A stretch of DNA of 64,000 bases from Roseibaca sp. Y0-43. GTDB taxonomy: Bacteria; Pseudomonadota; Alphaproteobacteria; Rhodobacterales; Rhodobacteraceae. The stretch is taken from NCBI RefSeq assembly GCF_020667835.1, contig NZ_JAFMPR010000007.1, positions 1-64,000 on the forward strand, in the 5' to 3' direction. The position numbers were made by a program, and so were the translations under genes. How positions within the stretch are numbered: the first letter of the stretch is position 1; each line of letters opens with the position of its first letter. The notes under the pieces are model-generated. The model did no database searches and had not been told where the DNA came from. It was given only the letters and a program-made list of their open reading frames with translations. Shown here in pieces: positions 3,163 to 62,489 of this stretch.

Positions 3163-3166
3163 TGTG

Positions 3167-44058: not shown

Positions 44059-44988
44059 ATGGCCGAAACCTTCGATCTGGACGACTTCGAGAACCCGCCC
44101 CCGCCGCCGCGATATCTGTACAAATACCTCTCCGCAGAGCGTGTCGGCAACGTCTTGGAGGGTGGAACGGTGCGTTTCACGCCTCTTATGAACACGAACG
44201 ATATCTTTGAGGTACGTTCGACGTTCGAAAAGCTCGCAGGCCCTAAGTTCATTGCGATGCTATCGGAGCAGATGGACAATACAGTATCCGAGGCAAACGT
44301 GCGCGATATGATCGCGGAGGAACTAAAGAAATATGGGCTCGGTTTCCTTCCCCCAGACGATGCAATAAAACTTGTCGAGCAACAGACGGGCCAGAACCTT
44401 CTTACGACGCTGCGCAATCAGATGCAGTCTTCCGTTGATACTATGCTTGTCCCAACGTTCAACGACCCAAAGAAAATTGAAGATCTACTCGAAAAGTTGG
44501 GCCGTGAATTGCTTTGTTTTTCGCTGTCCGAGCGTATGGATGTGGCTCCGATGTGGGCACACTACGCCGACAACAATAGCGGTTTTGTAGTCGCCTTTGA
44601 CACCGCGCACGAATGGTTGCAGCGTAGAAAGGACGGACAGAAAACCCGCTTGCAAAAGGTGACTTACTTCGACGGTAAGGTTGAAGAACCCTTGGCAGAT
44701 ATTCAAGCCGCTCTCATTTCAAAAACTACGGCATGGGCTTACGAACGCGAGTGGCGGCTATATGTGAAAAAGGATCAGGTCGATAGAATCGTTGGTGATC
44801 CCGCCGACCCAATTCATCTAGTGGACTTTCCGCCCGACGCCGTTGACCGCGTGATTTTGGGGCCGAAGACGCGCGAGGAAACTGCTGAGAGAATACGCAA
44901 TGCTTTGGCCGCAAGGTATCCGAATGCCCGGCTTGTTCGTGCCTTGCCGAACCGTGCGAACCATACCTACGACGAAGTGTCAGAATGA
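44059..44988 (+). CDS. DUF2971-type accessory protein
   Basis: This 309-aa cytoplasmic protein has the features I associate with DUF2971: an N-terminal LYKYLS block, NTNDIFE, a central CFSLSERMDVAPMWAHYADNNSGFVVAFD and a C-terminal TTAWAYEREWRLYV. Function is unknown; members are common in accessory and defence-type islands. Base composition is visibly lower in GC, with more A/T-ending codons than its neighbours. It starts 80 bp after tRNA-Ser and is followed by its own hairpin, so it is probably a recent single-gene acquisition. Confidence 0.8.
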   Translation: MAETFDLDDFENPPPPPRYLYKYLSAERVGNVLEGGTVRFTPLMNTNDIFEVRSTFEKLAGPKFIAMLSEQMDNTVSEANVRDMIAEELKKYGLGFLPPDDAIKLVEQQTGQNLLTTLRNQMQSSVDTMLVPTFNDPKKIEDLLEKLGRELLCFSLSERMDVAPMWAHYADNNSGFVVAFDTAHEWLQRRKDGQKTRLQKVTYFDGKVEEPLADIQAALISKTTAWAYEREWRLYVKKDQVDRIVGDPADPIHLVDFPPDAVDRVILGPKTREETAERIRNALAARYPNARLVRALPNRANHTYDEVSE

Positions 44989-45197: not shown

Positions 45198-47240
45198 TCA
45201 GCGCAGTGCCGCTTCGATATTGCCGCCGTCCACGGTCATCACATGCGCCGTGGTGCGCTCAGAAAGTGCAAGCGCCACGAAGGCATCGGCGACGTGGCGG
45301 GCTTCCACCTCTGATTTCAACAGATTGCCGCCCAGATAGGTTGCCACATCGACACCGCGCGCCGCCGCGCGGTCCGCGATCATCTCGGGCGTCAGCAGGC
45401 CCGAGCGGATGCGGTCGGCATTGATGCCATTGACCCGGATACCCTCGGCCCCAAGTTCCAGCGCAAGCTGGCGCAGCAGGAAGAAGGTGGCCGCCTTGGG
45501 CAGACCATAGGCGGCAAAGCCCTTGCCGGGGTTCACCGCCTGTTTCGAGACGTTGAACAGGATCTGCCCGCCGCGCCCCTGCTTGCGGAATACCGCGATG
45601 GCCGCCTGCGAGAAGGCGACATGTGCGAAGAAGTTCAGCTCGAACGCCGCGCGCAAGGTCTGGTCCGGCAGTGTGGCAAGCTCGTGGTTGATCGCGGCGC
45701 CTGCGTTATTGACCAACAGGTCCAGCCCGCCGAACCGCGCGACGCAGGCGTCCACCGCCGCTTGGCCCGCGCCGGGTTGCGTGATGTCCAGCGCGATGCC
45801 GCCGTGATCCGGCCCAAGCGTGGCCAATGCGCTGTCGAGCGCGTCCTGGCTCAGATCGACCAGAAAGACCGTCGCGCCCTTGGCCTTGAACGCTTGGGCG
45901 GTCGCCAGCCCGATGGCCCCGGCACCGCCCGTTATCAGCACGACCCGGCCCCGCAGCGCGGGCGCGGCGCCTTTGCCAAGCTTGGCCTGTTCCAGCGACC
46001 AGTATTCCATGTCGAAGAGGTCCGCTTCCTCGATCGGGAAGAAGCCCCCGGCCGCTTCGGCGTCGATCATCACGCGGGTGTTCTGCTCTCCCAGATCGGC
46101 TGCGATCCGTGCGGCCTTGGCATCGGTGCCGATGCCCACAAGGCCCAGACCCTCTATCCAGGCTAGGTTCGGCAGGGGCGAGAGCATGATCTTGGCACCC
46201 CCGTAGCGCGGGGCCTGGCGGTCGAAATAGGCGGTATAGGCATCTTTGAACGCGGCGACCTTGGCGGCGATGGCATCGGGACCGGCGGCAATATCGGCAG
46301 CGGTCAGGTGCAGGGGGCGGCCCTTGATGCGGATCACGTGGTCAGGGGTGGCCACGCCACGGGTGGCAAGCGTGGCAAGGTCGTCGCGCATCAGGAAGCT
46401 GCGGATCGCATCATTGTCGCGCGTGTCGAACACCGGCATGGCCGCGCCTTCGGGCAGATGCGCGCCGATTGCGCCGCGCAGCGCCGAGAGGGTCGCGGCG
46501 CGCGGCGCGTCGGGCAGGGCGGCGGCGGGCTTTAGCGGTGCGGGGCGGCGGTCAGCGAACCAGTCCGCCACAAGGTTGGTATGCGCGACGATCCTGTCAT
46601 AGGACGATTTTGCATCGGGTCCCCATGCGAAATGCCCGTGCTTGAGCAGCAACAGCCCTTCTGCATCCGGGTTGGCGTCAAACGCGGCGGCGGCGCGCTT
46701 GGCCAGCTCGAATCCCGGCATGACATAGGGCACCAGCGTCAGCTTGTCGCCGAACAGCTCTCGGGTGACGGCATCGACCTCTGGCAGGTCGGCAAGTGCC
46801 AGCATGGCCGTGGCATGGGTGTGGTCGACATAGGTATGGGGCAGGTAGGCGTGCAGCAGCGTCTCGACCGAGGGGTTGGGCGCGGTCGAGTCCAGCAGGT
46901 TCGAGCGCTGCACATTGACCATGTCCTCGTCGGACAGCGCATCCAGGCTGCGCAACCGCATCAGCGGGGCCATGCGGACCGCGGGCATCCCGCGCGCTTC
47001 CATCGTTTCCAGATCCCAGCCCGACCCCTTGATGTGCAGCACCTCGACCTCGTCGCCGTAAACGTCGCGCGCGGTCAGCTTGACAGAGGTGTTGCCGCCG
47101 CCATGCTGCACAAGGTCGGCATCCGCTCCGATCAGACGCGAGCTATAGACCCGCAGCGCCAATTCGCGCGCGCCCGCATCATCCCCGGCGGCATCCTGAA
47201 AGCGCCGCGCATCTGCGTCTCGCCATCTGTTCACGATCAT
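45198..47240 (-). CDS. Bifunctional class II aldolase / short-chain dehydrogenase
   Basis: This 680-aa fusion has two parts. Residues about 1-400 are a class II (zinc) aldolase domain: phosphate loop GGGNTS (47-52), catalytic-type Glu in PSVETLLHAYLP, zinc ligands His 140/His 142 (DHTHA) and HGH (201-203). Residues about 430-680 are a short-chain dehydrogenase: ITGGAGAIG, VNNAG and catalytic YGLPK. The layout is that of rhamnulose-1-phosphate aldolase/lactaldehyde dehydrogenase fusions. With MtnA- and MtnK-like genes nearby, cleavage of a 5-modified ribulose 1-phosphate to DHAP and an aldehyde, then aldehyde oxidation or reduction by the second domain, is the likely role. AGGGAG precedes ATG 47240. 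It is divergent from the SorC regulator, with an operator between. Confidence 0.87.
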   Translation of the reverse strand: MIVNRWRDADARRFQDAAGDDAGARELALRVYSSRLIGADADLVQHGGGNTSVKLTARDVYGDEVEVLHIKGSGWDLETMEARGMPAVRMAPLMRLRSLDALSDEDMVNVQRSNLLDSTAPNPSVETLLHAYLPHTYVDHTHATAMLALADLPEVDAVTRELFGDKLTLVPYVMPGFELAKRAAAAFDANPDAEGLLLLKHGHFAWGPDAKSSYDRIVAHTNLVADWFADRRPAPLKPAAALPDAPRAATLSALRGAIGAHLPEGAAMPVFDTRDNDAIRSFLMRDDLATLATRGVATPDHVIRIKGRPLHLTAADIAAGPDAIAAKVAAFKDAYTAYFDRQAPRYGGAKIMLSPLPNLAWIEGLGLVGIGTDAKAARIAADLGEQNTRVMIDAEAAGGFFPIEEADLFDMEYWSLEQAKLGKGAAPALRGRVVLITGGAGAIGLATAQAFKAKGATVFLVDLSQDALDSALATLGPDHGGIALDITQPGAGQAAVDACVARFGGLDLLVNNAGAAINHELATLPDQTLRAAFELNFFAHVAFSQAAIAVFRKQGRGGQILFNVSKQAVNPGKGFAAYGLPKAATFFLLRQLALELGAEGIRVNGINADRIRSGLLTPEMIADRAAARGVDVATYLGGNLLKSEVEARHVADAFVALALSERTTAHVMTVDGGNIEAALR

Positions 47241-47296
47241 CTTAAACTCCCTTGCAGCGTGACGCCCGGCATGGCCCCACTTGATTTGTCGGGATA

Positions 47297-47325
47297 CTTA
47301 TACAAAAGTCATGTAGGGTTGTCAT
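47297..47325 (-). promoter_or_regulatory. Leftward promoter of the aldolase gene
   Basis: On the minus strand ATGACA (plus 47320-47325) and TATAAG (plus 47297-47302) are spaced by 17 bp, a good sigma-70-type match. The -35 box lies in the operator at 47307-47324. Transcription would start about 50 bp before the aldolase ATG. Confidence 0.55.
47307..47324. promoter_or_regulatory. Operator 1 of the SorC-type regulon
   Basis: AGTCATGTAGGGTTGTCA is one of three related 18-bp sites in the cluster (consensus GTCAnnTAnnnTTGaCA). With its left flank it shares the 11-mer TACAAAAGTCA (47301-47311) with operator 3. It lies between the divergent aldolase and regulator genes and overlaps the aldolase -35. 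Confidence 0.65.
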
Positions 47326-47346
47326 AAATAAAATATTGGAAGCGGG

Positions 47347-48315
47347 ATGGCAGGGACAAAACGTCGCTCGAAAGGCCGGATCAGCGGCGAGAACGTCGTG
47401 ATCGAGGTGTCGTGGCTTTATTATCAGGAAGGGCTTAACCAGAAGGACATCGCCGACAAGCTGGCGATTTCGCGCGCGACGGTGGTGAATTACCTGCAAG
47501 AGGCGCGCGAGAAGGGCATGGTCAACATTTCCCTGACCGCACCCGCCTTCACCACCCATCGCGCGGCGGTCGAACTGGTCGAGAAATTCGGCCTGACCTC
47601 TGCCTATATCATGCCCGATGAAGATGCGGACATGGAAGAGATGTTCACCCGTGTCGTGCGTGGGGCGGCGTCGTGGTTGCCTGAATTGCTGGTGCCGGGC
47701 GACCGTATCGGGGTGGCCTGGGGAAAAACCATGTATGACATGGCCGAGGCGATGGAGCGCCAGCGCATCGACGATCTGGCGGTGCTTCAGCTGATCGGGT
47801 CGATGGCCACGCCCTATGGTTTCACCGCAGAGGCCTGCTCGACCCGGCTGGGCCAAAAGCTGGGGGCAGAGATCCTGAACCTTCATGCCCCCGCGATCCT
47901 GTCGAATGCCAAGCTGGCGGATGAATTGCGCCAAGAGCCGATCATCCACCGTCAGCTTGACCGCCTTGGAAGCTGCAACAAATTCGTGTTTTCCGTCGGC
48001 ACGGTCGAGCGCGACAGCCATATCGTCGGCTCTGGCCTTGCCACGCAGGACGACCTTGCGTGGTATCTGGAACAGGGCGCGCGCGGCGTGATCTGCGGCC
48101 GCTTCGTCGATGCCGAGGGCCATGCCATTCACGGCCCGCTTGACGACCGCATGATCGGCATTCCGCTGGAACATCTGGTCGGGCTGGAAATGGGCATTCT
48201 GGTCACGCCGGGGCCGGACAAGATCGACGCGTCGCTGGCCGCGATCCGGGGCGGCTATGTCACCCATATGGTCACAAGCCTGTCGGTGGCTGACGCGCTG
48301 CTGGCGGCGGGATAA
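47347..48315 (+). CDS. SorC/DeoR-type sugar-responsive transcriptional regulator
   Basis: This 322-aa regulator has an N-terminal HTH (WLYYQEGLNQKDIADKLAISRATVVNYLQEAREKG, about residues 22-56) and a large C-terminal sugar-phosphate-binding domain of the SorC type (GDRIGVAWGKTMYDM, LIGSMATPYGFTAE, GARGVICGRFVDAEG). Regulators of this family bind phosphorylated sugars as inducers. It is divergent from the aldolase gene and convergent with mtnA. Three matching dyads at the cluster promoters are its likely binding sites. Confidence 0.9.
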   Translation: MAGTKRRSKGRISGENVVIEVSWLYYQEGLNQKDIADKLAISRATVVNYLQEAREKGMVNISLTAPAFTTHRAAVELVEKFGLTSAYIMPDEDADMEEMFTRVVRGAASWLPELLVPGDRIGVAWGKTMYDMAEAMERQRIDDLAVLQLIGSMATPYGFTAEACSTRLGQKLGAEILNLHAPAILSNAKLADELRQEPIIHRQLDRLGSCNKFVFSVGTVERDSHIVGSGLATQDDLAWYLEQGARGVICGRFVDAEGHAIHGPLDDRMIGIPLEHLVGLEMGILVTPGPDKIDASLAAIRGGYVTHMVTSLSVADALLAAG

Positions 48316-48321
48316 GGGCAC

Positions 48322-48347
48322 ATGGCCCGGACAGACATCCGGGCCAT
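48322..48347. terminator. Hairpin between convergent regulator and mtnA-like genes
   Basis: The perfect inverted repeat ATGGCCCGGA / TCCGGGCCAT with a 6-nt loop is symmetric and can act in both directions. No T-run is present. Confidence 0.6.
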
Positions 48348-48359
48348 TCCGGTCAGTGC

Positions 48360-49454
48360 CTAGCGCTTTGCGTGTTCGGGAAAGGCTGCGGCCATCGCGT
48401 CGGCCGTCGCCGCGACCACGCCGCGCTCGGTAATCAGCCCCGTCACCAGCTCTGCCGGGGTCACGTCAAAGGCGGGGTTGCGACCGGGCGTGCCGTCGGG
48501 CGAAATCTGCACCGAGATGATCTTGCCCTCGGGGTCTTTGCCCTGAACATGCGTCACCTCTTCATCGGTCCGCTCTTCGATCGGAATTTCCCGCACGCCG
48601 TCCCACACCGTCCAGTCGATCGTGGGCGAGGGCAGGGCGACATAGAAGGGCACATCATTGGCCTTGGCCGCCAGCGCTTTCAGATAGGTTCCGATCTTGT
48701 TGGCGACATCGCCGCGCGCGGTGGTGCGGTCGGTGCCGACGATGACAAGATCGACCTCGCCATGCTGCATCAGGTGGCCACCGGCATTGTCCACGATCAA
48801 CTGGTGGCTGACCCCGGCTGAATTCAGCTCCCATGCCGTCAACAAGGCGCCCTGGTTGCGGGGGCGGGTTTCATCGACATAGACATGCACGTCGATCCCG
48901 GCCTCTACCGCGTGGTAGATGGGCGAGGTGGCGGTGCCCCAATCGACCGTCGCGGGCCAGCCGGCATTGCAATGGGTCAGGATATTCACCCGCCCGCCAT
49001 TCTTGCGCTTGGCGATCTCGCGGATCAGCTCGATACCATACACCCCGATCATGCGGTTGGTCTCGACATCCTCGTCGCAGATTTCCGCCGCGCGCCGAAA
49101 GGCGGCTTCCGCGCGCTCTTCGGGGGCGAGCGGTTTCAGCACGCGCGTCATCTCGTCCAGCGCCCATTTCAGGTTGATCGCCGTCGGGCGGGTGGCGTGC
49201 AGCAGGTCGTAGGTTTCCCCAAGCGACGCATCGGACGGGTCCGCCGCCATCTGAACCGCCATGCCATAGGCTGCGGTTGCGCCGATCAGCGGCGCGCCCC
49301 GGACCCACATCTCGAAAATCGCGTCGGCGAAATCCTTGCGGTCCTTCAGCTCTACGATGCGCAGCTCATGCGGCAGCCAGCGCTGGTCGATAATCATCAC
49401 CCGGCCATCGGCGTCACGCCAGATAGAGCGATAGGGTTTGCCGTTGATCTTCAC
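48360..49454 (-). CDS. MtnA-like 5-substituted-ribose-1-phosphate isomerase
   Basis: This 364-aa protein belongs to the MTR-1-P isomerase/eIF2B-like family. RGAPLIG (52-58), catalytic Cys 162 in THCNAG and Asp 242 in [18 protein letters not shown] are conserved, which supports aldose-1-phosphate to ketose-1-phosphate isomerisation. Some family blocks differ from classical Mtn[14 protein letters not shown], and [15 protein letters not shown] where TRPxxQGARLTA is usual. A substrate other than methylthioribose 1-phosphate is therefore possible, such as 5-deoxyribose 1-phosphate. It overlaps the upstream kinase gene by 4 bp (ATGA). Confidence 0.88.
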
Positions 49455-50716
49455 AGGTATTCCTCCTTGTTGACCTGTCGGGCAAGGTCAACGACCTGCG
49501 CCATCGAGGTGATCTTCTCGCGGCCCACGGCCAGCATGCGCCCCATCATCAGCGCGCGCGCTTCCAGCCGGGCGCGGGTCGCGTCATCCGCGATGGATTC
49601 GAAATCGGCATTATGCGCGAGGCCAAGGATCCGCCGGTGCATCTCTATCCCGCAAAAGCCCAGCGTATCGCGCCAGATCGCGGCCAGCCGCTCAATCCGG
49701 GCCTGTTCGGCGCCACGGGCATGGCCTTGATCCTCGAACAGGCTGGCCTGATACAGGATGCCGTGGCGCTCGCTGCGCCACAGGCGCGTGAACTCGGCTT
49801 CGAAAGCGGCCCAGATGTCGGCGGTGACGGTCAGGATCCAGCTCTGGTAATCGTCGCGCGCGCCCTCTGTTGCGGCATGGCCGGGCTGGGCGAAATAGGC
49901 GTGCAGGAAATTGGCCAGCAACATCCCCACATCGAAACCGATGGGGCCGTATGTGGCGAATTCGGGGTCGATGACCTTGGTTTCGGTGTCCGTCACCATC
50001 ACCGACCCGGTGTGCAGATCGCCATGCAGCATGGTCTCGGCATTCGACGCGAAGGCCCATTTCATATGCTGCGCCGCCACTTTCAGGTCGATATCGTCGC
50101 GCAAGATCTTGACGACCGGGTCTAGTCCGGGCGTGTGGCGGTTCAATTCGGCCTCGAAATACGGGTCCGAGAAGACAAGGTTCTCGGTGATGTCGCAAAG
50201 CTCGACATTGCCTAGGAACAGCGCCGCATCGGCTTTGCGCTGCGCGGTCGGCATCGCCAGGTCAGAGCCACGGAACAGCGTGCGCGCACAGAATTTGCCA
50301 AGCGTGTCGGCCAGCCCTTCGACCCGGCCGCCGTCGATCAGCACCTTGCGCAAGATGACATGCGGCGACAGGAATTCCATCGCGATGATCGCCTGCGCCT
50401 CGTCGAAATGATAGACTTGCGGCACCGATCCGGGATCGCGGGCCTCTTGCCGGATCAGCGCGTTATATTCAAAGAAGGCGCGTTTCAGGGGCAGGGGCCA
50501 GCTATCGCCGACCAGCCGAACATAGGGCAAGGCCTGCTTCACGATGACGCTGCCTTTCGGCCCGTCCACGATGAAGACAAGGTTCAGATTGCCGTCCCCG
50601 ACCTCGCGCACCTGCCATTGGGCCGGGTCGCCCAGATGCGAGCGGATCGATTCGACCGACCCCAGTCGGCCGGCCAGCGTTTCAGGGCTTAACGCCTCGT
50701 ATTCTTGATTGGACAC
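49451..50716 (-). CDS. MtnK-like 5-methylthioribose (5-substituted ribose) kinase
   Basis: This 421-aa kinase of the aminoglycoside-phosphotransferase-like fold makes aldose 1-phosphates. It has the N-terminal [12 protein letters not shown] and [11 protein letters not shown], Lys in [10 protein letters not shown], the catalytic [12 protein letters not shown] and the metal-binding [15 protein letters not shown], all MtnK features. It starts at GTG 50716 with an excellent GGAGGAG four bases upstream. It is first of an mtnK-mtnA unit, divergent from the ABC importer across a shared operator. No mtnB, mtnC, mtnD or mtnE genes are present, so this is not the classical methionine salvage set. Confidence 0.9.
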
Positions 50717-50811
50717 GGGTCTCCTCCCCAGAAAATCCTGCGTGGTTTTGTGGTTGAACGCCCCCGTCCGGGGCCGCTTTCAAGATGCAGGATTTCGCGT
50801 TTTCACCCAAT

Positions 50812-50829
50812 TGTCAAATTATATTGACA
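50812..50829. promoter_or_regulatory. Operator 2 of the SorC-type regulon, perfect palindrome
   Basis: TGTCAAATTATATTGACA is a perfect 18-bp palindrome in the divergent region between the kinase and ABC operons. It places TTGACA on both strands, so one site could block two -35 boxes. The rightward reading TTGACA (50824-50829) with TAGCTT 18 bp later is a possible promoter for the transporter. Operators 1 and 3 match it at the outer GTCA and TTGaCA arms. Confidence 0.72.
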
Positions 50830-50877
50830 TTTGAAAGTTTTGGGGGCTAGCTTCGGTCCAACGGGAGGAATTCAGAC

Positions 50878-52395
50878 GTGAGTGAGCAGGCGATCCGCCT
50901 AGAGGGGCTGCAAAAGGCCTTTGGCAAGAATCGGGTATTGCGCGGGATCGACATGCAGATTCCGCGTGGCAAGGTCACTGTGCTGATGGGGGCCAACGGG
51001 GCCGGGAAATCGACCTTAGTCAAGGTTCTGTGCGGGGTCCATCGCGCCGATGGCGGCAAGGTCATGCTGGGCGACACGCTTTTTGCCCCCGAAACCCCGT
51101 CCGAGGCGCTACGCTCGGGCGTGGTGACGGTGCATCAGAACATCAATGACGGCGTTGTGCCCGATCTGGATGTCACCTCGAACCTGCTGCTGGATACGCT
51201 GGCCTCTGGCGGAAGCACCTTTTTGAACCGGGCGCAGATGCGGGCGAAGGCGCACGAGATCGCGGCCAATGTCGGGCTGGAGATTGACGTGACCCTGCCG
51301 GTGGCGGGCCTGTCGCTGGCGGATCGTCAATTGGTGGCCATCGCGCGGGCCATGGCGCATGACCCGCAAGTGTTGATTCTGGATGAGCCGACCTCGTCGC
51401 TGTCTGCGGCTGAAACCAAGCGGCTGTTCGAAATGGTCGAACGGCTGCGCGATCAAGGGGTTGCGATCCTCTACATCTCGCACCGGATGTCCGATATCCG
51501 GCGGCTGGCCGACCGCATCCTGTCGATGCGCGACGGCCAGATCGTTCAGCAATTCGAAGACAAGCCGCTCGATTACGAAGGCGCGGTGCGCGCGATGCTG
51601 GGCCATGAGATCACAGAGGTCGATATCCGCATTCCCACGCCCGGCAAGCCGGTGCTGGAATTGCGCGACCTTGTCCTGCAAGAGGGCGCCGCCCCCTTCT
51701 CGATAGAGGCGCGCGAGAACGAGGTCATCGCGGTGGCGGGTCTTGTTGGGTCCGGCAAATCGGCGCTGGCATCGGTCCTCTTCGGTCTGACCCAGGCGAA
51801 ATCGGGCGAGATCATGCTGGACGGCCAACCGCACCGCCCGCGCAGCGCCGCAGACGCTATTGCCGCCGGGGTCTATATGTGCCCCAAGGACCGGCTGGTG
51901 AATGCCGTGGTCAAGGATTTTGACATCACCCGCAACATCACGCTGCCCTTCACCAAGCGGCACGCGCGCGGCGGCGGGTTCCTGTCCTTCCGCTCGGAAC
52001 GCGCCAAGGCGAAACACATGATCGCCGAGATGGGCGTCGTCTGCCAAGGCGCGGGCGATGGCATCCTGACCCTGTCGGGCGGCAACCAGCAAAAGGTCAT
52101 GGTCGCCCGCTGGATGGCAGAGGCCAGCCGGGTGCTGATCCTCGATGAGCCGTTTCAAGGCGTCGACATTCAGGCGCGGCGTGACATCGGCCACAAGATA
52201 CGCGAAACCGCACACACCCGCACGACGATCGTGTTCGTCGCCGAACTCGACGAGGCCATAGAGGTCGCCGACCGCATCATGGTGATGAGCGAGCATTCGA
52301 TTGTCGGCGATCACCGCAATGAAAACATCGACGTCGCCGCGATCATGGCCGAAGTGGTCCATGCCGCCGACGCGCGCAGCGCAGCAGGATTTTAA
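50878..52395 (+). CDS. Sugar ABC transporter ATP-binding protein (RbsA-like, tandem ATPase)
   Basis: This 505-aa protein has two nucleotide-binding domains. The first has Walker A GANGAGKS, and Walker B VLILDEPTSSL. The second has a degenerate Walker A GLVGSGKSAL and signature LSGGNQQKVMVARW. This is the ribose/xylose/galactose type (CUT2). It starts at GTG 50878 after GGGAGGAA. It leads the operon ATPase, permease, binding protein, mutarotase. Confidence 0.92.
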   Translation: MSEQAIRLEGLQKAFGKNRVLRGIDMQIPRGKVTVLMGANGAGKSTLVKVLCGVHRADGGKVMLGDTLFAPETPSEALRSGVVTVHQNINDGVVPDLDVTSNLLLDTLASGGSTFLNRAQMRAKAHEIAANVGLEIDVTLPVAGLSLADRQLVAIARAMAHDPQVLILDEPTSSLSAAETKRLFEMVERLRDQGVAILYISHRMSDIRRLADRILSMRDGQIVQQFEDKPLDYEGAVRAMLGHEITEVDIRIPTPGKPVLELRDLVLQEGAAPFSIEARENEVIAVAGLVGSGKSALASVLFGLTQAKSGEIMLDGQPHRPRSAADAIAAGVYMCPKDRLVNAVVKDFDITRNITLPFTKRHARGGGFLSFRSERAKAKHMIAEMGVVCQGAGDGILTLSGGNQQKVMVARWMAEASRVLILDEPFQGVDIQARRDIGHKIRETAHTRTTIVFVAELDEAIEVADRIMVMSEHSIVGDHRNENIDVAAIMAEVVHAADARSAAGF

Positions 52396-52399
52396 CGAG

Positions 52400-53404
52400 A
52401 TGCAAAAAAGCGCCACCCTTCTGGATTTCGCCATCAAATACGGCTTCCTTGCCCTGATGGCGGGACTGGTCATCTTCTTCAGCGTCACCGCCGAAGGCTT
52501 CATGTCGCCCTTCTCTGCGGTGTTCATCCTGCAATCGGTGGCCATTACCGGCATCCTGGCGCTGGGCGTGACCTCTACGCTGGTGGTCGACGGGTTCGAC
52601 CTGTCCATCGGTGCGGTCGCCACCTCTGCGCTGATGCTGTCGGCCTATGTCATGGTCGTGTGGGAGTTGAGCGCGTTCTGGGCCGTGGCCCTTAGCCTGA
52701 CGATGGGCGCGATGGTCGGCGCGGTGAACGGGGTTCTGGTGGTGAAATTCAAGGTGCCCGACCTGCTGGCCACGCTGGGCATGATGTTCCTGCTTCTGGG
52801 CGCGCAACGTATCCCGACAGAGGGGCGTTCTGTGTCGACCGGGATGGCGTTGCCCGATGGCACTATTGCCAATGGCACCTTCTCGGAAAGCTTCTTGATG
52901 CTGGGCCGCTACCGGATTGCCGATCTGGTGCCGCTGTCGGTGGTGTTCCTGATCGCCGCCGCGGTGCTGATCTGGGTGTTTTTGGAACTGACGCGCCACG
53001 GTCGGCTGATGTATGCCATCGGGTCGAATGCGCAGGCGGCCAGCCTCGCCGGGACCAATGTGAACCGCTACAAGATCCTTGCCTACATGATTTCCGGCAC
53101 CATGGCCGCGCTGGGCGGCGTGCTGCTGGCGGCGCGTCTGGGCCGGGGGGACGTGGCATCGGGCAACAACCTGTTGCTGGATGCGGTCGCGGCGGCCCTG
53201 ATCGGCTTTGCCGTTCTGGGGGCGGGCAAGCCGAACGCTTTCGGCACCGCCATTGGCGCGCTGTTCGTGGGGATCCTCTTGCAGGGTCTGACGATGCTGA
53301 ACGCGCCTTATTACACGCAAGACTTCATCAAGGGCGCGGTGCTTGTCGTCGCCCTGGTGTTCACCTTCGCGCTTTCCGGCCGCACCGGCCGGGGCAAGGC
53401 GTGA
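52400..53404 (+). CDS. Sugar ABC transporter permease (RbsC-like)
   Basis: This 334-aa inner-membrane permease of the CUT2 family has about 8-10 membrane segments and the family blocks GFDLSIGAV, GxxxGxxNGxLVVKFKVPDLLATLG, and AIGSNAQAASLAGTNVNRYKILAYMISG. ATG 52400 (MQKSATLLDF) lies 4 bp after the ATPase stop; the frame's upstream part to 52301 is a shadow. Confidence 0.9.
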   Translation: MQKSATLLDFAIKYGFLALMAGLVIFFSVTAEGFMSPFSAVFILQSVAITGILALGVTSTLVVDGFDLSIGAVATSALMLSAYVMVVWELSAFWAVALSLTMGAMVGAVNGVLVVKFKVPDLLATLGMMFLLLGAQRIPTEGRSVSTGMALPDGTIANGTFSESFLMLGRYRIADLVPLSVVFLIAAAVLIWVFLELTRHGRLMYAIGSNAQAASLAGTNVNRYKILAYMISGTMAALGGVLLAARLGRGDVASGNNLLLDAVAAALIGFAVLGAGKPNAFGTAIGALFVGILLQGLTMLNAPYYTQDFIKGAVLVVALVFTFALSGRTGRGKA

Positions 53405-53437
53405 AATTGGTCCAATAGGGAGAAGAGGGAGGAAACC

Positions 53438-54475
53438 ATGATCTCTAGACGCGTATTTACCAGCCTGCTCGGGGCCGTCGCCATGATGCCGGCGGTCGGC
53501 TTCGCCGCCGATATGCCGGCGCCGTTCGACAATCCCGGCGAGGTGAAAGTGGCGCTGGTACGCTACCTGTCCACCGGCGATTTCTTTCAGGCCTACCTGT
53601 CGGGCGTGGAAAAGCAGGCCGAGGCGATCGGCGTTGACCTGCGGGTCTTCGACAGCCGCCAGGATGCCGCACTTCAGGCCGATATGGTCGATCAGGCCAT
53701 CGCGCTTGGCGTGGACGGTATCATCATCCAGCACGGGCTGACGGAATCGATGCAGGCCGCTGCGCAGCGCGCGGTTGACGCAGGCATCAAGGTCGTCGCC
53801 TTCGACGTGGATGTCGAGAATGACGCCATCCCGCAGATCGAGCAATCCGACCGCGACTTGGCCCGCCTTGCGCTGGAAGCCGCGCTGGCAGACAACGGCA
53901 ACGAGTTCGTTGCGGGTTACGTCTATGTGCCGGGCATCGCCCCGCTTGACCGTCGCGACGAAACCTGGGTTCAGGTCAAGGCAGACAATCCGGGTATCAA
54001 CGAAGTGGCCATGTTCGGCACGCTCGACAACCCGATTGCCAATTCCGTGGCCAACCAGGCGCGCGCGGTGCTGTCCGCGAACCCGAACATCACCGTCATG
54101 TTCGCGCCCTATGACGAATTCGCCAAGGGTGTGAAGATCGCGGTGGATGAAGCGGGCATGACCGATCAGGTCTCGATCTACTCGGCCGACGTCTCGACCG
54201 CTGACATCGCGGCGATGCGCGAGCCGGGTTCGTCTTGGAAGGCAACGGCTGCCACCAACCCCGCCGTGGTGGGTGAAGTGTCGGTCCGCGCGCTGGCAAT
54301 GCTGCTGGCGGGTGAAAACCCCGGCGACAGCGTGATCGTGCCGCCGACCCTGATTACCCAGACCATGCTGAACGAGCTGGACATCACCAATATGGAAGAT
54401 CTGGGCGCGAAGATGCCCGCATTTGCCCATGCCGATGTCGCGGTCCCGGACTGGATGCCGCTGCCGGCCCGCTGA
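53438..54475 (+). CDS. Sugar ABC transporter periplasmic binding protein
   Basis: This 345-aa periplasmic binding protein has an N-terminal signal peptide (MISRRVFTSLLGAVAMMPAVGFAAD, Tat-like twin Arg without the full motif). A type I sugar-binding fold (RbsB-like) follows: DLRVFDSRQDAALQADMVDQAIALGVDGIIIQ. It is third in the ABC operon. The bound sugar is not determinable by eye. A ribose derivative is inferred from the kinase and isomerase in the same regulon. Confidence 0.88.
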   Translation: MISRRVFTSLLGAVAMMPAVGFAADMPAPFDNPGEVKVALVRYLSTGDFFQAYLSGVEKQAEAIGVDLRVFDSRQDAALQADMVDQAIALGVDGIIIQHGLTESMQAAAQRAVDAGIKVVAFDVDVENDAIPQIEQSDRDLARLALEAALADNGNEFVAGYVYVPGIAPLDRRDETWVQVKADNPGINEVAMFGTLDNPIANSVANQARAVLSANPNITVMFAPYDEFAKGVKIAVDEAGMTDQVSIYSADVSTADIAAMREPGSSWKATAATNPAVVGEVSVRALAMLLAGENPGDSVIVPPTLITQTMLNELDITNMEDLGAKMPAFAHADVAVPDWMPLPAR

Positions 54476-54545
54476 TCGGCTGCGCCTTGAACACGACAAG
54501 GGGCCGGGGCAAGTTGCCCTGGCCCATTTGCTTGGAGGAAGACCC

Positions 54546-54989
54546 ATGCTCAAAGGAATAGACCCAAGGATGCCCGCCGCGCTGCTGGATGTGCTGATGC
54601 GGATGGGGCACGGCGATGAAATCGCGGTGGTGGATGCGAATTTCCCCTCGCATTCCACCGCTGCGGATACGGTCACAGGTCAGGTCATCGAACTGCCTGG
54701 CTTCACCGCGCCAGAGGCGATTGCGCTTGTCACATCGCTGATGCCGCTCGATGCTTTCGTGCCCGAGGGCGCGTTCTGGATGCAGCGCGACGGCGCGGGC
54801 GATGTCCCGGACGAGGTTCATTCCGAAGCGCTGAAGGTCATGATGGCCGAAATGCCGGATGGCGGCGCGGTCGGGTCACTCGAACGGCAGAAGTTTTACA
54901 AGCGTGCGCGCCAAGGCTTCGCGGTGCTGCGCACGACAGAGCCGCGCCCCTTCGGCTGTTTCATCCTGCGCAAGGGCGTGATTTTCTGA
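54546..54989 (+). CDS. RbsD/FucU-family sugar mutarotase
   Basis: This 147-aa protein has the conserved GHGDEIAVVDANFPS block near the N-terminus and the C-terminal RTTEPRPFGCFILRKGV, as in FucU (fucose mutarotase). It equilibrates sugar anomers and so supplies the anomer used by the kinase. ATG 54546 has GGAGGAA five bases upstream. It is last in the ABC operon, 70 bp after the binding protein. Confidence 0.9.
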   Translation: MLKGIDPRMPAALLDVLMRMGHGDEIAVVDANFPSHSTAADTVTGQVIELPGFTAPEAIALVTSLMPLDAFVPEGAFWMQRDGAGDVPDEVHSEALKVMMAEMPDGGAVGSLERQKFYKRARQGFAVLRTTEPRPFGCFILRKGVIF

Positions 54990-55011
54990 CGCCGCAAGTG
55001 CTGCTTGCCAT

Positions 55012-55033
55012 GCCGGGGGCATGGGCCCCCGGT
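55012..55033. terminator. Hairpin between convergent FucU and RLP genes
   Basis: CCGGGGGC / GCCCCCGG with a short loop lies 23 bp after the FucU stop and 8 bp before the RLP stop on the other strand. It is symmetric and has no T-run. Confidence 0.55.
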
Positions 55034-55040
55034 CATGCCG

Positions 55041-56162
55041 TCAGCGGGCAGAGGCGTCAATCGCGGCGCGCATCGCGGCAATGCCTTCGCCGATCTGCTC
55101 GCCAAGGCGCAGAAGCGACCCGCCCAGCAGATAGACCACGTCATCGCCATACATCTCGACCATGTCCGCCGCGCGCGCGACACTCATGCCGCCGCCGGGG
55201 CTTGGCAACATGGGCTTGCCGGGGCCAGAGGGGTCGCGGCACGCGTCCGCAATGGCGCGGCACTCGTCGGGGGTAAAGCCGAAGCGGCCGCCGACATTGG
55301 GAAAGACCGAAATATCGGACCCCGCCAGCCGTTGCAGCGTGCCGAACATCATCCCATGTGAAAACCCGGTATCCTCGGACAAGACATAGGGGCCAAAGAA
55401 GGACGGGTGCGTCATCACCGGCAGATCAAGGCTGTTGTCGCGCGCGATGCGGTTGACCACGCCAAAGCCCAGAAGCCCCGGCATGACCAGCAGCCCATCG
55501 GCCCCGGCTTGCTTGGCGAAGTGAATATTCGCCTCCAGATCCTGCGGGCGACCGGCCAGCGACGGAAAGTAAAGTGCGCGACCGCCGGTTTCCGCATTCG
55601 CCCGCTGCACGGCGGCGCTGACCTTTTCGACCCGTTCGCGGAAGGGGGCCATGCTTTGGTCGGTGATCCCGTGATCTTCCTTGACCACATCCGCCCCGGC
55701 CTTTGCGCAAAGATAGGCGATCCGAGCCAGCGCGTCGGCATCCAGCCCTTGTGGCTTGAGCACCGGCGCAATCAGCCCGCCGCGCGCGCGCCCGGCGCGG
55801 TCGCGAATGCCCGCGATTCCGAAGCGCGGGCCGGGATGGCGCGCCAGCATGTCGGCCCCCGGATCAATCGCGATGACCTTCAACCCCTTCTGGATAGAGG
55901 AATTGCCGAAGATCACGTTCAGGAATTGCGTGAACTCATGCCCCGCGCCGTCGGGCGAATAAGAGATCGTCGCGCGAAAGCGGCCCGCGCCCTCGGGGCC
56001 GATTTCCTCGATCTGGCCGACGATCTGATCGGCGATATAGCCCGGCGGCACCACGTCCAGCGGCACCTCGACGGTCTGCTCAAGTGCTATCCCCTCGGCG
56101 CGGGCGCGGGCCTCTGCCAGATCGGCGGCAAAGATGCGGTAGGTGACGGCGAAGCGCTGCAT
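55041..56162 (-). CDS. Form IV RuBisCO-like protein (RLP)
   Basis: This 373-aa RuBisCO-fold protein is shorter than true large subunits. Key residues by alignment to RuBisCO: Lys 136 in VLKPQG (K175 kept, K177 changed to Gln); Lys 161-Asp 163-His 164 in VVKEDHG (K201 and D203 kept, E204 changed to His); His 252 in THPS (H294 kept, R295 changed to Pro); phosphate-site GGG at 323-325 and LLGG at 346-348. The changes rule out carboxylase activity. KxDHG resembles, from memory, the rhizobial IV-NonPhoto group. It overlaps the transketolase C-subunit stop by 1 nt (TAATG), so it is translated with it. It is probably an isomerase or decarboxylase-type enolase on a sugar phosphate. Confidence 0.9.
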   Translation of the reverse strand: MQRFAVTYRIFAADLAEARARAEGIALEQTVEVPLDVVPPGYIADQIVGQIEEIGPEGAGRFRATISYSPDGAGHEFTQFLNVIFGNSSIQKGLKVIAIDPGADMLARHPGPRFGIAGIRDRAGRARGGLIAPVLKPQGLDADALARIAYLCAKAGADVVKEDHGITDQSMAPFRERVEKVSAAVQRANAETGGRALYFPSLAGRPQDLEANIHFAKQAGADGLLVMPGLLGFGVVNRIARDNSLDLPVMTHPSFFGPYVLSEDTGFSHGMMFGTLQRLAGSDISVFPNVGGRFGFTPDECRAIADACRDPSGPGKPMLPSPGGGMSVARAADMVEMYGDDVVYLLGGSLLRLGEQIGEGIAAMRAAIDASAR

Positions 56163-57166
56163 TACAGCGCCTCTGCCTTGACGTTGGAATGGACCGCGTC
56201 GACCCGCACGGCGTCCAGCGCATTCTCGTCAATGCCGGTTTCAACCCCCATCAACCGTTCTATCCCGCGCACCAGCGCAATCGCGTCCAGCCCGTAATAG
56301 CGCATCAGATAGGGCCGAGAGCCGCCATGCGCATAGGTGTCTTGCAGCCCCAGCCGGATCAGCTTCTTGCCCAGCCCCGCCTCTGCCATCGCCTCTGCCA
56401 CCATGGACCCGATGCCCCCGGCGACGACGTGGTTTTCCAGCGTGACCACGCCATGTTTGACGCTTGCGGCATGGGCGATGATCGCCTCGGCATCGAAGGG
56501 CTTGAGCGTGGACAGGTGCAAATGGCGCACCGAGACACCCGCCGCATCCAGCGCGCCGCGCGCGCGGATCGCTTCTTCGGTGGTGATCCCGGCGGTGACG
56601 ACCATCACATCCGTGCCCTCGGACAGAACGCGCAATTCGCCCAAGCGCAGCGGCGTGTCGAACAGGCGCGGGACAGAGCCGCGCAGCACGCGGCAATAGA
56701 CCGGCCCGTCAATCGAGTCGGCCACCTCGACAATGCTCTCGACCTCTGTCGCGTCGCCGGTTTCAAGCACGGTCATGTTGGGAATGGCGCGCATGACAGA
56801 GATGTCTTCGATGGCCTGATGGGTCATGCCACCGGGTGTGGTGATGCCGGGCAGAAACCCCATCAGCCGGACCTTGCGGCGCGGATAGGCGACAGAGGCC
56901 ATCAGCTGGTCATAGGGCCGCCGGTACAGAAACACCGCGAAGGTGTGAATGAAGGGCCGAAACCCGGCAAGCCCCATGCCGCCCGCGAAAGACAGCATGT
57001 TCTGCTCGGCCATCCCCATGGACAGGAATTGCTCTGGGTGGCGATCGCGAAAGCCGTCGATCTCGACCGAAGAGGTCAGATCGGCCGACAGCGCGATCAC
57101 TTCGGGGTGCTTGACCGCATATGTCTCGAAGGCGGTGGCGTAGGGGCGGGCGACCATTTCAACCAT
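56162..57166 (-). CDS. Transketolase C-terminal subunit (split transketolase)
   Basis: This 334-aa protein contains the pyrimidine-binding and C-terminal transketolase domains. The catalytic-type Glu lies in FLSMGMAEQNMLSFAGG, followed by GITTPGGMTHQAIED and VVTAGITTEEAI. ATG 57166 (MVEMVARPY) has GAGGAG seven bases upstream, made by the end of the N-subunit gene; a TTG at 57181 is less likely. It pairs with the next gene to make one active enzyme. Confidence 0.9.
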   Translation of the reverse strand: MVEMVARPYATAFETYAVKHPEVIALSADLTSSVEIDGFRDRHPEQFLSMGMAEQNMLSFAGGMGLAGFRPFIHTFAVFLYRRPYDQLMASVAYPRRKVRLMGFLPGITTPGGMTHQAIEDISVMRAIPNMTVLETGDATEVESIVEVADSIDGPVYCRVLRGSVPRLFDTPLRLGELRVLSEGTDVMVVTAGITTEEAIRARGALDAAGVSVRHLHLSTLKPFDAEAIIAHAASVKHGVVTLENHVVAGGIGSMVAEAMAEAGLGKKLIRLGLQDTYAHGGSRPYLMRYYGLDAIALVRGIERLMGVETGIDENALDAVRVDAVHSNVKAEAL

Positions 57167-57177
57167 GATCTGTCTCC

Positions 57178-58122
57178 TCAATGCGCGTAGTCGATGGGGT
57201 CGATGCCCAGTTCGGCAGCAATCGACATGTTGTATTCGGCGCGCTCGTCTTCAGATTTGAAGCGGACGTAATGCAGTTTCGGAAAGCGCCGCTCGAGGAT
57301 GCTCATGCCCTTGGTCGGCGAGGTATAGGCAAGGATAATCAACGGCTTGCCCTCGTGCTTTTCCTGCTTCGCCTGACGCATCGCGCTCAGGTCATGGCCG
57401 TCGATCTCGACACAGACCGCGCCGAAATCGACGAATTTCTGGCGGATGTCGCCGACCTGCATGACCTCGTCCATCGCGCCATCGCATTGCTGGCGGTTCA
57501 CGTCCATGATGGCCCAGAGGTTGTCGATGCCGTGATGGGCGGCGGCCTGAACCGCTTCCCACGTCTGGCCTTCCTGAACCTCGCCATCCGACATGAACAC
57601 GGCCACATCGCCCGCGTCGCCGTTGCGCCGCCGCCCCCAGGCCAGACCCGCGCCGGTGGACAGCCCGATCCCAAGCGTGCCGTTATGCACCTCCATGCCG
57701 GGGCTGTGTTCGGCCCCGATCATTTCCACCGAAGAGCCGTCCTTGTTGAACATCTCCAGCCCTTCGGGCGCCATGCGGCCGGTTTCAATCAGGGTTGCAT
57801 AGGCCACCAGCGCGTAATGCGCGGGCGCGATGAACAGCCGGTCGAATTGCGGCTCGAACGGGCCGTTATAGCCCGCACCGGTGTGGTAGTCGGGATTGCT
57901 GGCAGAGGGCACGCCGCCGAATGGTTTCGGGATCATCGGCAGGGTCGGCTGCCCCAGCGTCAGCGCTTCGTTATACAGAAACGCAAGCTGTTCGGCGGCG
58001 GAACAGGCCTGCGAGAGATAGCCGCCATTGTTGCGGATCGTATGCTCGAAGACGCGCCGGCGGATGCCGAGCGCGACCTCTTCGGTCGTTTTTGCGTTTT
58101 TCAGGCCGAAAGCGTCAGGCAA
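57178..58122 (-). CDS. Transketolase N-terminal subunit (split transketolase)
   Basis: This protein is 314 aa from a TTG start at 58122. It has the thiamine-diphosphate domain: NNGGYLSQACSAAEQLAFLY, GLSTGAGLAWG, VFMSDGEVQEGQTWEAVQAA and DVNRQQCDG. There is no Met near the domain start, but GGAGGAG lies seven bases before TTG 58122 and the -10 box lies 41 bp upstream, so TTG is well supported. The frame to 58380 would run through the operator. It is first in a unit N-subunit, C-subunit, RLP. Confidence 0.85.
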   Translation of the reverse strand: MPDAFGLKNAKTTEEVALGIRRRVFEHTIRNNGGYLSQACSAAEQLAFLYNEALTLGQPTLPMIPKPFGGVPSASNPDYHTGAGYNGPFEPQFDRLFIAPAHYALVAYATLIETGRMAPEGLEMFNKDGSSVEMIGAEHSPGMEVHNGTLGIGLSTGAGLAWGRRRNGDAGDVAVFMSDGEVQEGQTWEAVQAAAHHGIDNLWAIMDVNRQQCDGAMDEVMQVGDIRQKFVDFGAVCVEIDGHDLSAMRQAKQEKHEGKPLIILAYTSPTKGMSILERRFPKLHYVRFKSEDERAEYNMSIAAELGIDPIDYAH

Positions 58123-58162: not shown

Positions 58163-58191
58163 ATGTTACAAAAGTCAGATAGTGTTGACAA
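58163..58191 (-). promoter_or_regulatory. Promoter of the split transketolase-RLP operon
   Basis: On the minus strand TTGTCA (plus 58186-58191) and TAACAT (plus 58163-58168) are spaced by 17 bp. The -35 lies in operator 3. The spacer contains TGACTTTTG, which also occurs in the aldolase promoter. Confidence 0.6.
58173..58190. promoter_or_regulatory. Operator 3 of the SorC-type regulon
   Basis: AGTCAGATAGTGTTGACA matches operator 1 and the palindromic operator 2. The extended 11-mer TACAAAAGTCA (58167-58177) is identical to that at operator 1. It lies 51 bp before the TTG start of the transketolase N-subunit. Confidence 0.68.
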
Positions 58192-59577: not shown

Positions 59578-59580
59578 ATG

Positions 59581-60960: not shown

Positions 60961-61003
60961 GATGTCTCCTGTCTGTGTCGATAAATCTTCGGGCCGGGCG
61001 CGG

Positions 61004-62371: not shown

Positions 62372-62399
62372 TGTCCCTGTTATCCTTCATCCTTGCCCG

Positions 62400-62486
62400 A
62401 AATATCCTCGGGGGGTCTGGGGGGCTTGATAGCCCCCCAGCTTTGGGTCCTGGGTCTGGGGGGCTTGATGCGCCCCCCAGCTTTTT
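62400..62486. repeat. Tandem hairpin repeat in the dctP/GS gap
   Basis: Two near-identical inverted repeats, CTGGGGGGCTTGATAGCCCCCCAG (62419-62442 region) and CTGGGGGGCTTGATGCGCCCCCCAG (62457-62481 region), lie in tandem, the second followed by CTTTTTCTTTT on the plus strand. The adjoining GCCCGAAATATCCTCGGGGGG resembles a common Rhodobacteraceae intergenic element. The T-run suits the plus strand, although all neighbours are on the minus strand. Confidence 0.65.
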
Positions 62487-62489
62487 CTT

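Follow-up and report, generated by a model that had tools for sequence, protein, structure and literature searches.

The gene cluster at positions 45198-58122 of a 64,000-nucleotide stretch of Roseibaca sp. Y0-43 (contig NZ_JAFMPR010000007.1; the whole stretch is referred to as the window) encodes a RuBisCO-like protein (RLP) beside a two-gene transketolase (TK). The cluster probably serves the uptake and catabolism of a 5-substituted 5-deoxyribose, most likely 5-methylthioribose (MTR), by way of the RLP and then the TK. Judged by its genes and their relatives, the system appears to be a new, conserved variant of the known RLP-dependent methylthioribose routes, in which the TK takes the place of a cupin.

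A sequence-only reading of the stretch had proposed an imported 5-modified ribose and two cleavage routes, one by an aldolase and one by the RLP and TK via a xylulose 5-phosphate. Gene co-occurrence, a common promoter motif, a fusion of MtnA with the TK, the kinship of the RLP, and an exchange of cupin and TK now support that proposal, and MTR is favoured among the candidate sugars because of the exchange. NCBIfam and Pfam profile matches confirmed its complete gene list, namely the kinase, the isomerase, the aldolase-dehydrogenase fusion, the RLP, the split TK, the CUT2 importer, the FucU/RbsD-type protein and the SorC-type regulator.

Conservation of the gene set

Recurrence of the gene set in other genomes, a check proposed with the sequence-only reading, was found within the family, on plasmids and in other families. 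The RLP was present in 6 of 37 genus genomes, and MtnK in the same six among the 36 genus genomes searched. Across 394 sampled family genomes, an RLP clade at ≥53% identity occurred in 25, the window genome included, and one further match was weak (29% identity). Of the 25 family loci, 24 have both TK halves next to the RLP. The other members were counted at an identity threshold of 44% (30% for FucU) with coverage left free and the window row counted as complete: MtnA in 21, MtnK in 20, parts of the CUT2 importer in 20, the SorC-type regulator in 18, and the fusion of aldolase and short-chain dehydrogenase (SDR) as well as FucU in 10 each. The stretches around the 25 RLPs span 10-20 kb and several end at contig or fetch ends, so that these counts are lower bounds; the MtnA of locus L108, with 44% identity, falls just below the threshold.

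Contigs of named genomes yielded 11 Rhodobacterales loci, all with the order TKN-TKC-RLP (N- and C-half of the TK), plus one Anaerolineae RLP without a TK. These loci come partly from the genomes already sampled (L036 from G410, L037 from G400, L038 from G415, L039 from G402, L041 from G387, and L043 from G570). Thirty genomes were tested further: all 25 with the RLP clade, together with G202, G344, and three identified by their TK (G1076, G666, and G1124). MtnA was found in 29 of them and is absent in G666, which also has no RLP match.

The system also occurs in Rhizobiaceae, Devosiaceae, on Vibrio plasmids and in two more alphaproteobacterial families. Twenty-two plasmid records, several of them near-copies, carry a TK N-half with at least 60% identity, and the RLP is present in 20 of these. 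Two Vibrio nigripulchritudo plasmid records hold an N-half at 46% identity together with an RLP, and below Vibrio the N-half identity falls to about 35% among the plasmid matches listed. Counted in reverse, 20 of the 21 plasmid records having an RLP at ≥42.9% identity also have the TK, the exception being a plasmid of Shinella zoogloeoides. The gene order mtnK-mtnA-TKN-TKC-RLP was the same on all four plasmids read (Agrobacterium, Pararhizobium, Mariluticola, and Ensifer; Rhizobiaceae/Devosiaceae), with importer, sugar-binding regulator and aldolase-SDR genes alongside.

The periplasmic binding protein is 75-93% identical across clusters. Between Rhizobiales loci and the window it retains 77-78% identity, compared to 45-49% for the RLP, and this higher conservation suggests one ligand throughout. 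The window RLP shares 82% identity with the Sinisalibacter protein, compared to 72-74% with the RLPs of its genus-mates. Because of these identities and the frequent location on plasmids, the system has likely spread horizontally.

Relationships of the RuBisCO-like protein

The closest solved structure to the window RLP is 3qfw (237 bits; the next reach at most 129 bits), which we take to be a Rhodopseudomonas RLP. A cupin-partnered RLP likewise has 3qfw as its best match, with 432 bits. In a tree of 60 rows, the TK-type RLPs, including the Anaerolineae and G643 rows, formed a group of 44 (support 97/90) and the cupin-type RLPs a group of 14 (97/97). Both together (58 rows) were grouped at 95/97, leaving one MtnW and one OiaX row outside; this tree kept all rows, and the program warned of long branches at the junction to these outgroups. 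Without the outgroups and the Vibrio row, the split between TK-type (43 rows) and cupin-type (14 rows) received 100/100; L044 was left out of the RLP and TK C-half sets. The comparison with form IV relatives, also proposed with the sequence-only reading, thereby places the window RLP with cupin-partnered RLPs and apart from MtnW and OiaX.

An active-site stretch of the form K[DE]DHG, a pattern derived in this analysis and not a published criterion, was present in 41 of 42 TK-type RLPs (the Vibrio row excepted), in 14 of 14 cupin-type RLPs and in neither of the two outgroup rows, which carry KDDE instead. The window RLP is, by these comparisons, related to the DeepYkr-type RLPs, and the predicted activity is that of a 5-methylthioribulose 1-phosphate 1,3-isomerase.

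Other assignments of the RLP were tried and dropped. The protein scored below the MtnW cut-offs (182.5 vs. 409 and 140 vs. 513.6 bits), and with MtnD missing as well, methionine salvage of the MtnW type was rejected. True RuBisCO was rejected on scores below the RuBisCO equivalog cut-offs. Apiose or apionate catabolism was discarded since the RLP reached 67.2 bits against an OiaX cut-off of 700 and no other cluster gene scored in the profile searches as an enzyme of apiose or apionate breakdown.

Exchange of cupin and transketolase

The cupin of the known RLP-cupin pair releases methanethiol and 1-deoxyxylulose 5-phosphate (DXP). A Cupin_2 homologue adjoins 14 of the 15 RLPs of the related clade that were examined, the fifteenth lying at a contig end. 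Adjacency was determined by tblastn and comprises 13 of 14 class-level loci plus L163; long flanks were available for 13 of the 14, and for L013 2,976 bases. Pfam names the cupin in L083 and L152, and the other cupins are homologues of these two.

Among the 30 genomes tested, the TK N-half was found in 29 and is missing in G643. The cupin was detected in all four cupin-type control genomes and in G643, the family genome with an RLP and without a TK; it had no match at E 1e-8 in the window genome (G000) or in the other 28 TK genomes. The cupin-type 1-methylthioxylulose 5-phosphate methylsulfurylase of the methylthioadenosine (MTA)-isoprenoid shunt is absent from the window genome in this search. 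G643 retains the RLP and importer (L105) and MtnK-MtnA (L153). In L107 and other relatives the TK lies between RLP and binding protein; G643 has a 0.5-kb gap at this place, and no TK was detected by tblastn. The G643 RLP nests inside the TK clade of the RLP tree. The findings are most simply explained by cupin and TK using the same RLP product, so a methylthio sugar is favoured as the substrate. The exchange is a natural experiment on the product of the RLP.

The altered transketolase

The window TK matches the split TK 6yak/6yaj, DXS and human-type TK by sequence. Its PF00456, PF02779, and PF02780 domains provide the thiamine diphosphate (ThDP)-binding and pyrimidine-binding parts of the fold; the whole genome contains seven Transket_pyr matches. 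Loci were aligned where the match covered >60% of the query without stop or X, the N-half of L072 being taken as the last 320 residues of a fusion. The stretches GGYLSQ, IGAEHSPG, GFLPG, TPGG, and THQ are invariant in the 36 N-halves and 35 C-halves aligned. Seven of eight plasmid TK pairs keep every motif. The eighth, from Vibrio, keeps IGAEHSPG, GFLPG, TPGG, and HQ; among the eight pairs checked it is the one in which the GGYLSQ pattern was not found.

Four active-site changes compared to the usual TK were found throughout the aligned halves (36/36 N- and 35/35 C-halves): a histidine to tyrosine, loss of the histidine of GHPE, a histidine to phenylalanine, and an aspartate to glycine. We take these sites to be H26, H100, H461, and D469 of the E. 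coli enzyme. The usual residues are retained in the ordinary TK of the same genome (27157-29178) and in the split TK 6yak/6yaj. A second histidine and the invariant arginine of the last motif (LRG) are preserved in the split TK. The missing histidine presumably contacts the C1 hydroxyl of xylulose 5-phosphate. Because this contact would be lost, the altered site fits a donor lacking the C1 hydroxyl, i.e. a 1-deoxy-1-substituted sugar.

A common operator-like motif

The motif GTCANNTANNNTTGWCA, with at most one mismatch, occurs at three sites in the window, all in cluster promoters (Table 1), compared to 0.07 expected; none of 100 shuffles reached three sites. As the motif was built from these same three promoters, the window count is partly circular and relatives serve as the independent test. 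In 20 relatives, 29 matches were found vs. one in reversed sequence; the 29 correspond to 25 distinct places, four of which count twice as palindromes. The motif lies in an expected promoter in 15 of the 20, and 28 of the 29 matches, read by eye, are in expected promoters. No site was detected in L042, L093, L104, or L147 among these relatives, and L150 has a single, misplaced one. The cluster is thus probably co-regulated, and the SorC-type regulator would act at the motif in all three promoters. The single SorC-controlled regulon of the sequence-only reading gains support from this common site.

Variant loci

L072 (G202, a member of a different family in the class) encodes MtnA fused to the TK N-half as a single protein of 656 aa (Pfam IF-2B 6e-79, Transketolase_N 1e-15). 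This fusion lies beside the TK C-half, RLP, a SorC-like regulator, NupC, and a purine nucleoside phosphorylase that exceeds two cut-offs (337 bits vs. 218 and 318 vs. 293). A phosphorylase of the same family is found in L108 (300 bits vs. the cut-off of 218), and the copy in L144, on a Ponticoccus alexandrii plasmid, is 96% identical to it. L144 and L108 are closely alike (95-98% for most genes). Both carry a BMP-type ABC importer divergent from a run of phosphorylase, amidohydrolase, MtnA, molybdopterin oxidoreductase, TKN, TKC, and RLP. The amidohydrolase resembles models of 5'-deoxyadenosine/MTA deaminases with scores below their cut-offs, and the oxidoreductase of L108 matches the S/N-oxide reductase family. 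From their gene content, these putatively nucleoside-fed variants swap out importer and kinase and retain MtnA, RLP, and TK.

Further genes were seen around the TK. The TK pair of L145 (8365-15944), L146 (8391-15944), and L154 (2477-15646) adjoins a molybdopterin oxidoreductase, an FGGY kinase, a zinc dehydrogenase, a class II aldolase, and a SorC regulator; these loci may represent a second pathway, in which the TK substrate would be derived from a free ketose or polyol. The molybdopterin oxidoreductases next to the TK are of two types with 48% identity (L108 5186-7462 and L144 11728-14004 vs. L145 11592-13904 and L146 11637-13907). The location of both types by the TK may point to a substrate in sulfoxide form. 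Among the matches listed, no MTA-sulfoxide or sulfoxide-reductase pathway was found in the open-access literature.

In L044 (2146-3899), the genes for the binding protein and the TK are separated by those for an Rpe-like epimerase and an LsrF-like thiolase, and LsrF-like genes are divergent from TK-N in L035 (1279-2160) and L034 (3-557). The presence of an epimerase would fit the 3:1 mixture of xylulose and ribulose products that RLPs of this kind form. The RLP/TK cluster of L089 contains DhaK/DhaL-like and triosephosphate-isomerase-like genes (all named by eye) and a stand-alone FucA-like aldolase gene (1549-3205 and 7897-9390).

Proposed pathway and its alternatives

All reactions, the substrate and the fate of the C2 unit are proposed from gene families and their neighbourhood. 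The CUT2 importer would take up MTR, whose anomers FucU may equilibrate. MtnK would phosphorylate the sugar at O1 to MTR-1-phosphate, and MtnA would convert this to 5-methylthioribulose 1-phosphate. Like its cupin-partnered relatives, the RLP would then shift the carbonyl (1,3-isomerisation) to give 1-methylthioxylulose 5-phosphate. The two-subunit TK would cut the C2-C3 bond of this compound, yielding glyceraldehyde 3-phosphate and a methylthio-C2 fragment on ThDP, which may leave as methylthioacetaldehyde or as methanethiol and an acetyl unit. In some members, the ribulose 1-phosphate may also be processed by a second route, in which the aldolase-SDR fusion would yield dihydroxyacetone phosphate (DHAP) and methylthioacetaldehyde, the latter serving as substrate of the SDR half. 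All three promoters would be controlled by the SorC-type regulator via their common site.

A more specific version of the TK step is tentative, and we consider it doubtful. The enzyme would cleave both C-C and C-S bonds: methanethiolate would be eliminated from the C2 unit bound to ThDP, analogous to the loss of water in phosphoketolase, and the products would be methanethiol, glyceraldehyde 3-phosphate, and either acetyl phosphate or acetate. If true, this would be a dioxygen-independent, carbon-yielding route of methionine salvage and MTR use paired with a RuBisCO-like protein. MtnD (PF03079, acireductone dioxygenase), the sole gene of universal salvage searched genome-wide, had no match in the window genome, and ordinary methionine salvage is therefore unlikely; the case made against it by the sequence-only reading was borne out for this gene. 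Among the 30 genomes, three match MtnD at E 0.001, one of them over the cut-off (27.8 bits vs. 27).

Several observations weigh against the RLP-TK route for MTR. The exchange of cupin and TK was seen once, in the draft assembly of G643, whose cupin and RLP lie on different contigs, so that a binning error is possible; the two contigs have GC contents of 62% and 63%. The identity of the cupin rests on its family and its adjacency to RLPs that match 3qfw best. A KPQG stretch present in all 14 cupin-type RLPs occurs in 25 of 42 TK-type RLPs; therefore, the two kinds of active site are not identical. Gene content is uneven as well. The aldolase fusion and FucU are inconstant (each in 10 of 25 loci), and the phosphorylases of the nucleoside variants are of the purine-nucleoside and not the MTA type. 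L145, L146, and L154 carry the TK without RLP or MtnA nearby, and thus the TK is not tied to this route alone. Conversely, a TK is missing next to two further RLPs that fall on the TK-type side, that of the Anaerolineae locus L045 and the product of a short, isolated gene carried by a Shinella zoogloeoides plasmid (L175 9983-10993). In the latter case, the annotation lists neither TK nor cupin over 20.9 kb, and the gene is perhaps a remnant. The Anaerolineae RLP (44% identity) lies beside a CUT2 importer and an SDR, with no TK or cupin match in L045 9965-16842.

The nucleoside phosphorylases bear on a different substrate, unmodified ribose. Ribose or a nucleoside would supply ribose 1-phosphate, the MtnA-like enzyme ribulose 1-phosphate, and the RLP xylulose 5-phosphate, the usual TK donor. 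NupC and the purine nucleoside phosphorylase beside the L072 fusion, with the same phosphorylase family in L108 and L144, would agree with such a route, yet the genome already has an ordinary TK, and the split TK is without the histidine that presumably contacts the C1 hydroxyl. Moreover, L108 and L144 add the amidohydrolase like 5'-deoxyadenosine/MTA deaminases (under cut-offs) and L108 the S/N-oxide reductase, and the exchange partner of the TK is a cupin of the methylthio-acting kind. We regard unmodified ribose as unlikely.

The same cupin in G643 argues against 5-deoxyribose disposal as by DrdKIA of Bacillus thuringiensis, in which the RLP itself would form DXP for cleavage by the TK; furthermore, an RLP that yields DXP needs no TK. 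According to the available text of the source papers, DrdK/DrdI/DrdA clusters draw on the same families, and some of them also encode sugar transporters and a homologue of fucose mutarotase (PMC6079011); MtnK and MtnA are described as taking both sugars (PMC10986504). Still, this explanation appears quite unlikely. Finally, the enzymes could be broad and the true substrate a 5-deoxyribose with another substituent, such as a sulfoxide, sulfonate, halogen, or the dimethylarsinoyl group of algal arsenosugars. Some carriers are marine and one is named as an arsenite-oxidising bacterium; molybdopterin oxidoreductases occur near the TK in L108, L144, L145, L146, and L154, and tau-like importers and sulfatases in L145/L146. 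However, these oxidoreductase, importer, and sulfatase genes are not in clusters of the window type, and the cupin exchange points to methylthio; we judge this option very unlikely. MTR, processed by RLP and TK, remains the substrate we favour.

Gene layout of the cluster

Eleven cluster genes were identified as open frames in the 3.03-Mb genome (Table 1). The stop codon of MtnK and the start of MtnA overlap by 4 nt (GTGA), and the stop of the TK C-half overlaps the RLP start (TAATG). These overlaps make translational coupling plausible for both pairs, as the sequence-only reading had stated for RLP and TK. For the TK C-half, an ATG with a GGAG box at 57166 is more likely the start than the TTG at 57181.

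Table 1. Genes and operator-like sites of the RLP-TK cluster (window coordinates)
Feature	Coordinates	Strand	Evidence or remark
Bifunctional class II aldolase/SDR fusion, 680 aa	45198..47240	-	NF006192 848 bits (cut-off 639); PF00596 + PF00106
Operator-like motif GTCATGTAGGGTTGTCA	47308..47324	+	aldolase-SDR/SorC divergent promoter
SorC/DeoR-type sugar-binding regulator	47347..48315	+	PF04198 184 bits
MtnA-like 5-(methylthio)ribose-1-phosphate isomerase	48360..49454	-	NF004326 479 bits (cut-off 271); TIGR00512 420 bits (cut-off 279)
MtnK-like 5-(methylthio)ribose kinase	49451..50716	-	TIGR01767 485 bits (cut-off 275)
Operator-like motif GTCAAATTATATTGACA, 1 mismatch	50813..50829	+	mtnK/importer divergent promoter
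CUT2 sugar ABC importer ATPase	50878..52395	+	family-level match, below equivalog cut-offs
CUT2 permease	52400..53404	+	ATG start directly after ATPase stop
Periplasmic sugar-binding protein	53438..54475	+	PF13407 117 bits
FucU/RbsD-type mutarotase, variable cluster member	54546..54989	+	PF05025 102 bits
RLP	55041..56162	-	PF00016 70.7 bits (cut-off 30.1); related to cupin-partnered RLPs (DeepYkr type)
TK C-half, pyrimidine-binding + C domains	56162..57181	-	PF02779, PF02780
TK N-half, ThDP-binding domain	57178..58122	-	PF00456
Operator-like motif GTCAGATAGTGTTGACA	58174..58190	+	upstream of TK-RLP operon

A neighbouring block at 58432-63527 comprises an iron-type alcohol dehydrogenase (Fe-ADH), an aldehyde dehydrogenase (ALDH), a glutamine-synthetase-like protein, and a TRAP binding protein. 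It was considered as part of the pathway and dropped, as relatives lack the block beside their clusters and no motif is shared before its genes; the sole exception is one ALDH match of 33% in L108. A DUF2971 protein lies beside the cluster at 44059-44988.

Comparison with known systems

Among the matches listed, the open-access literature yielded no RLP-transketolase pathway and no TK dedicated to a methylthio sugar; likewise, no description of this exact gene set was found there, in line with the sequence-only reading. The word transketolase does not occur in the available text of PMC4958253, PMC5893883, PMC6302742, PMC10663253, and PMC6079011. The nearest precedent found is 5'-deoxyadenosine salvage: in the available text, 5-deoxyribose serves as acceptor for a promiscuous TK that forms 7-deoxysedoheptulose, and a promiscuous TK reaction is mentioned as having been suggested for 5-deoxyribulose 1-phosphate in Methanocaldococcus (PMC8102628). 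That system differs in its general TK and in 5-deoxyribose being the acceptor, and rubisco is not named in the available text (PMC8102628).

By profile scores, the cluster has the MtnK and MtnA that mark membership of the DHAP shunt and of 5-deoxyribose salvage. As far as the available text shows, the DHAP shunt (MtnK/MtnA/Ald2) and DrdKIA are alike in kinase, isomerase, and class II aldolase and, in some cases, in transporters and a mutarotase homologue (PMC6079011, PMC10986504). Here, in contrast, the aldolase is fused to the SDR and inconstant, a stand-alone FucA-like aldolase occurs in one of 40 loci (L089), and an RLP-TK branch is added.

Split TKs also occur in apiose and sulfoquinovose catabolism. 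The split TK of Carboxydothermus (6yak/6yaj) shares the two subunits and, by sequence, the ThDP family, whereas the TK described here forms its own family, as seen from the identity drop in the plasmid rows (46% to about 35% among the matches listed) and the changed active-site motifs. The D-apionate enzyme OiaX shares the RuBisCO superfamily and a role in sugar catabolism, but is a distant outgroup in the RLP tree, and the window RLP scores far below its cut-off.

The closest likeness is to the MTA-isoprenoid shunt of Rhodospirillum rubrum and Rhodopseudomonas palustris, with its DeepYkr RLP and cupin methylsulfurylase. In the available text, the R. palustris RLP-cupin pair makes and then consumes 1-methylthioxylulose 5-phosphate (PMC5893883; also PMC4958253). 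The two systems would have in common MtnA followed by a related RLP acting on 5-methylthioribulose 1-phosphate (PMC5893883, PMC4958253), whereas here a split TK replaces the cupin, a sugar importer and MtnK are added, and a SorC-type regulator is accompanied by common operator-like sites. With this variant, the methylthioribulose-isomerising relatives of RuBisCO would have a second type of downstream partner in addition to the cupin. In Rhodobacterales and rhizobia, an organosulfur sugar would thereby be connected to central carbon metabolism while bypassing the oxygen-dependent step of methionine salvage. Vague annotations such as transketolase, RuBisCO large subunit C-terminal-like, and methylthioribose kinase thereby become a testable pathway.

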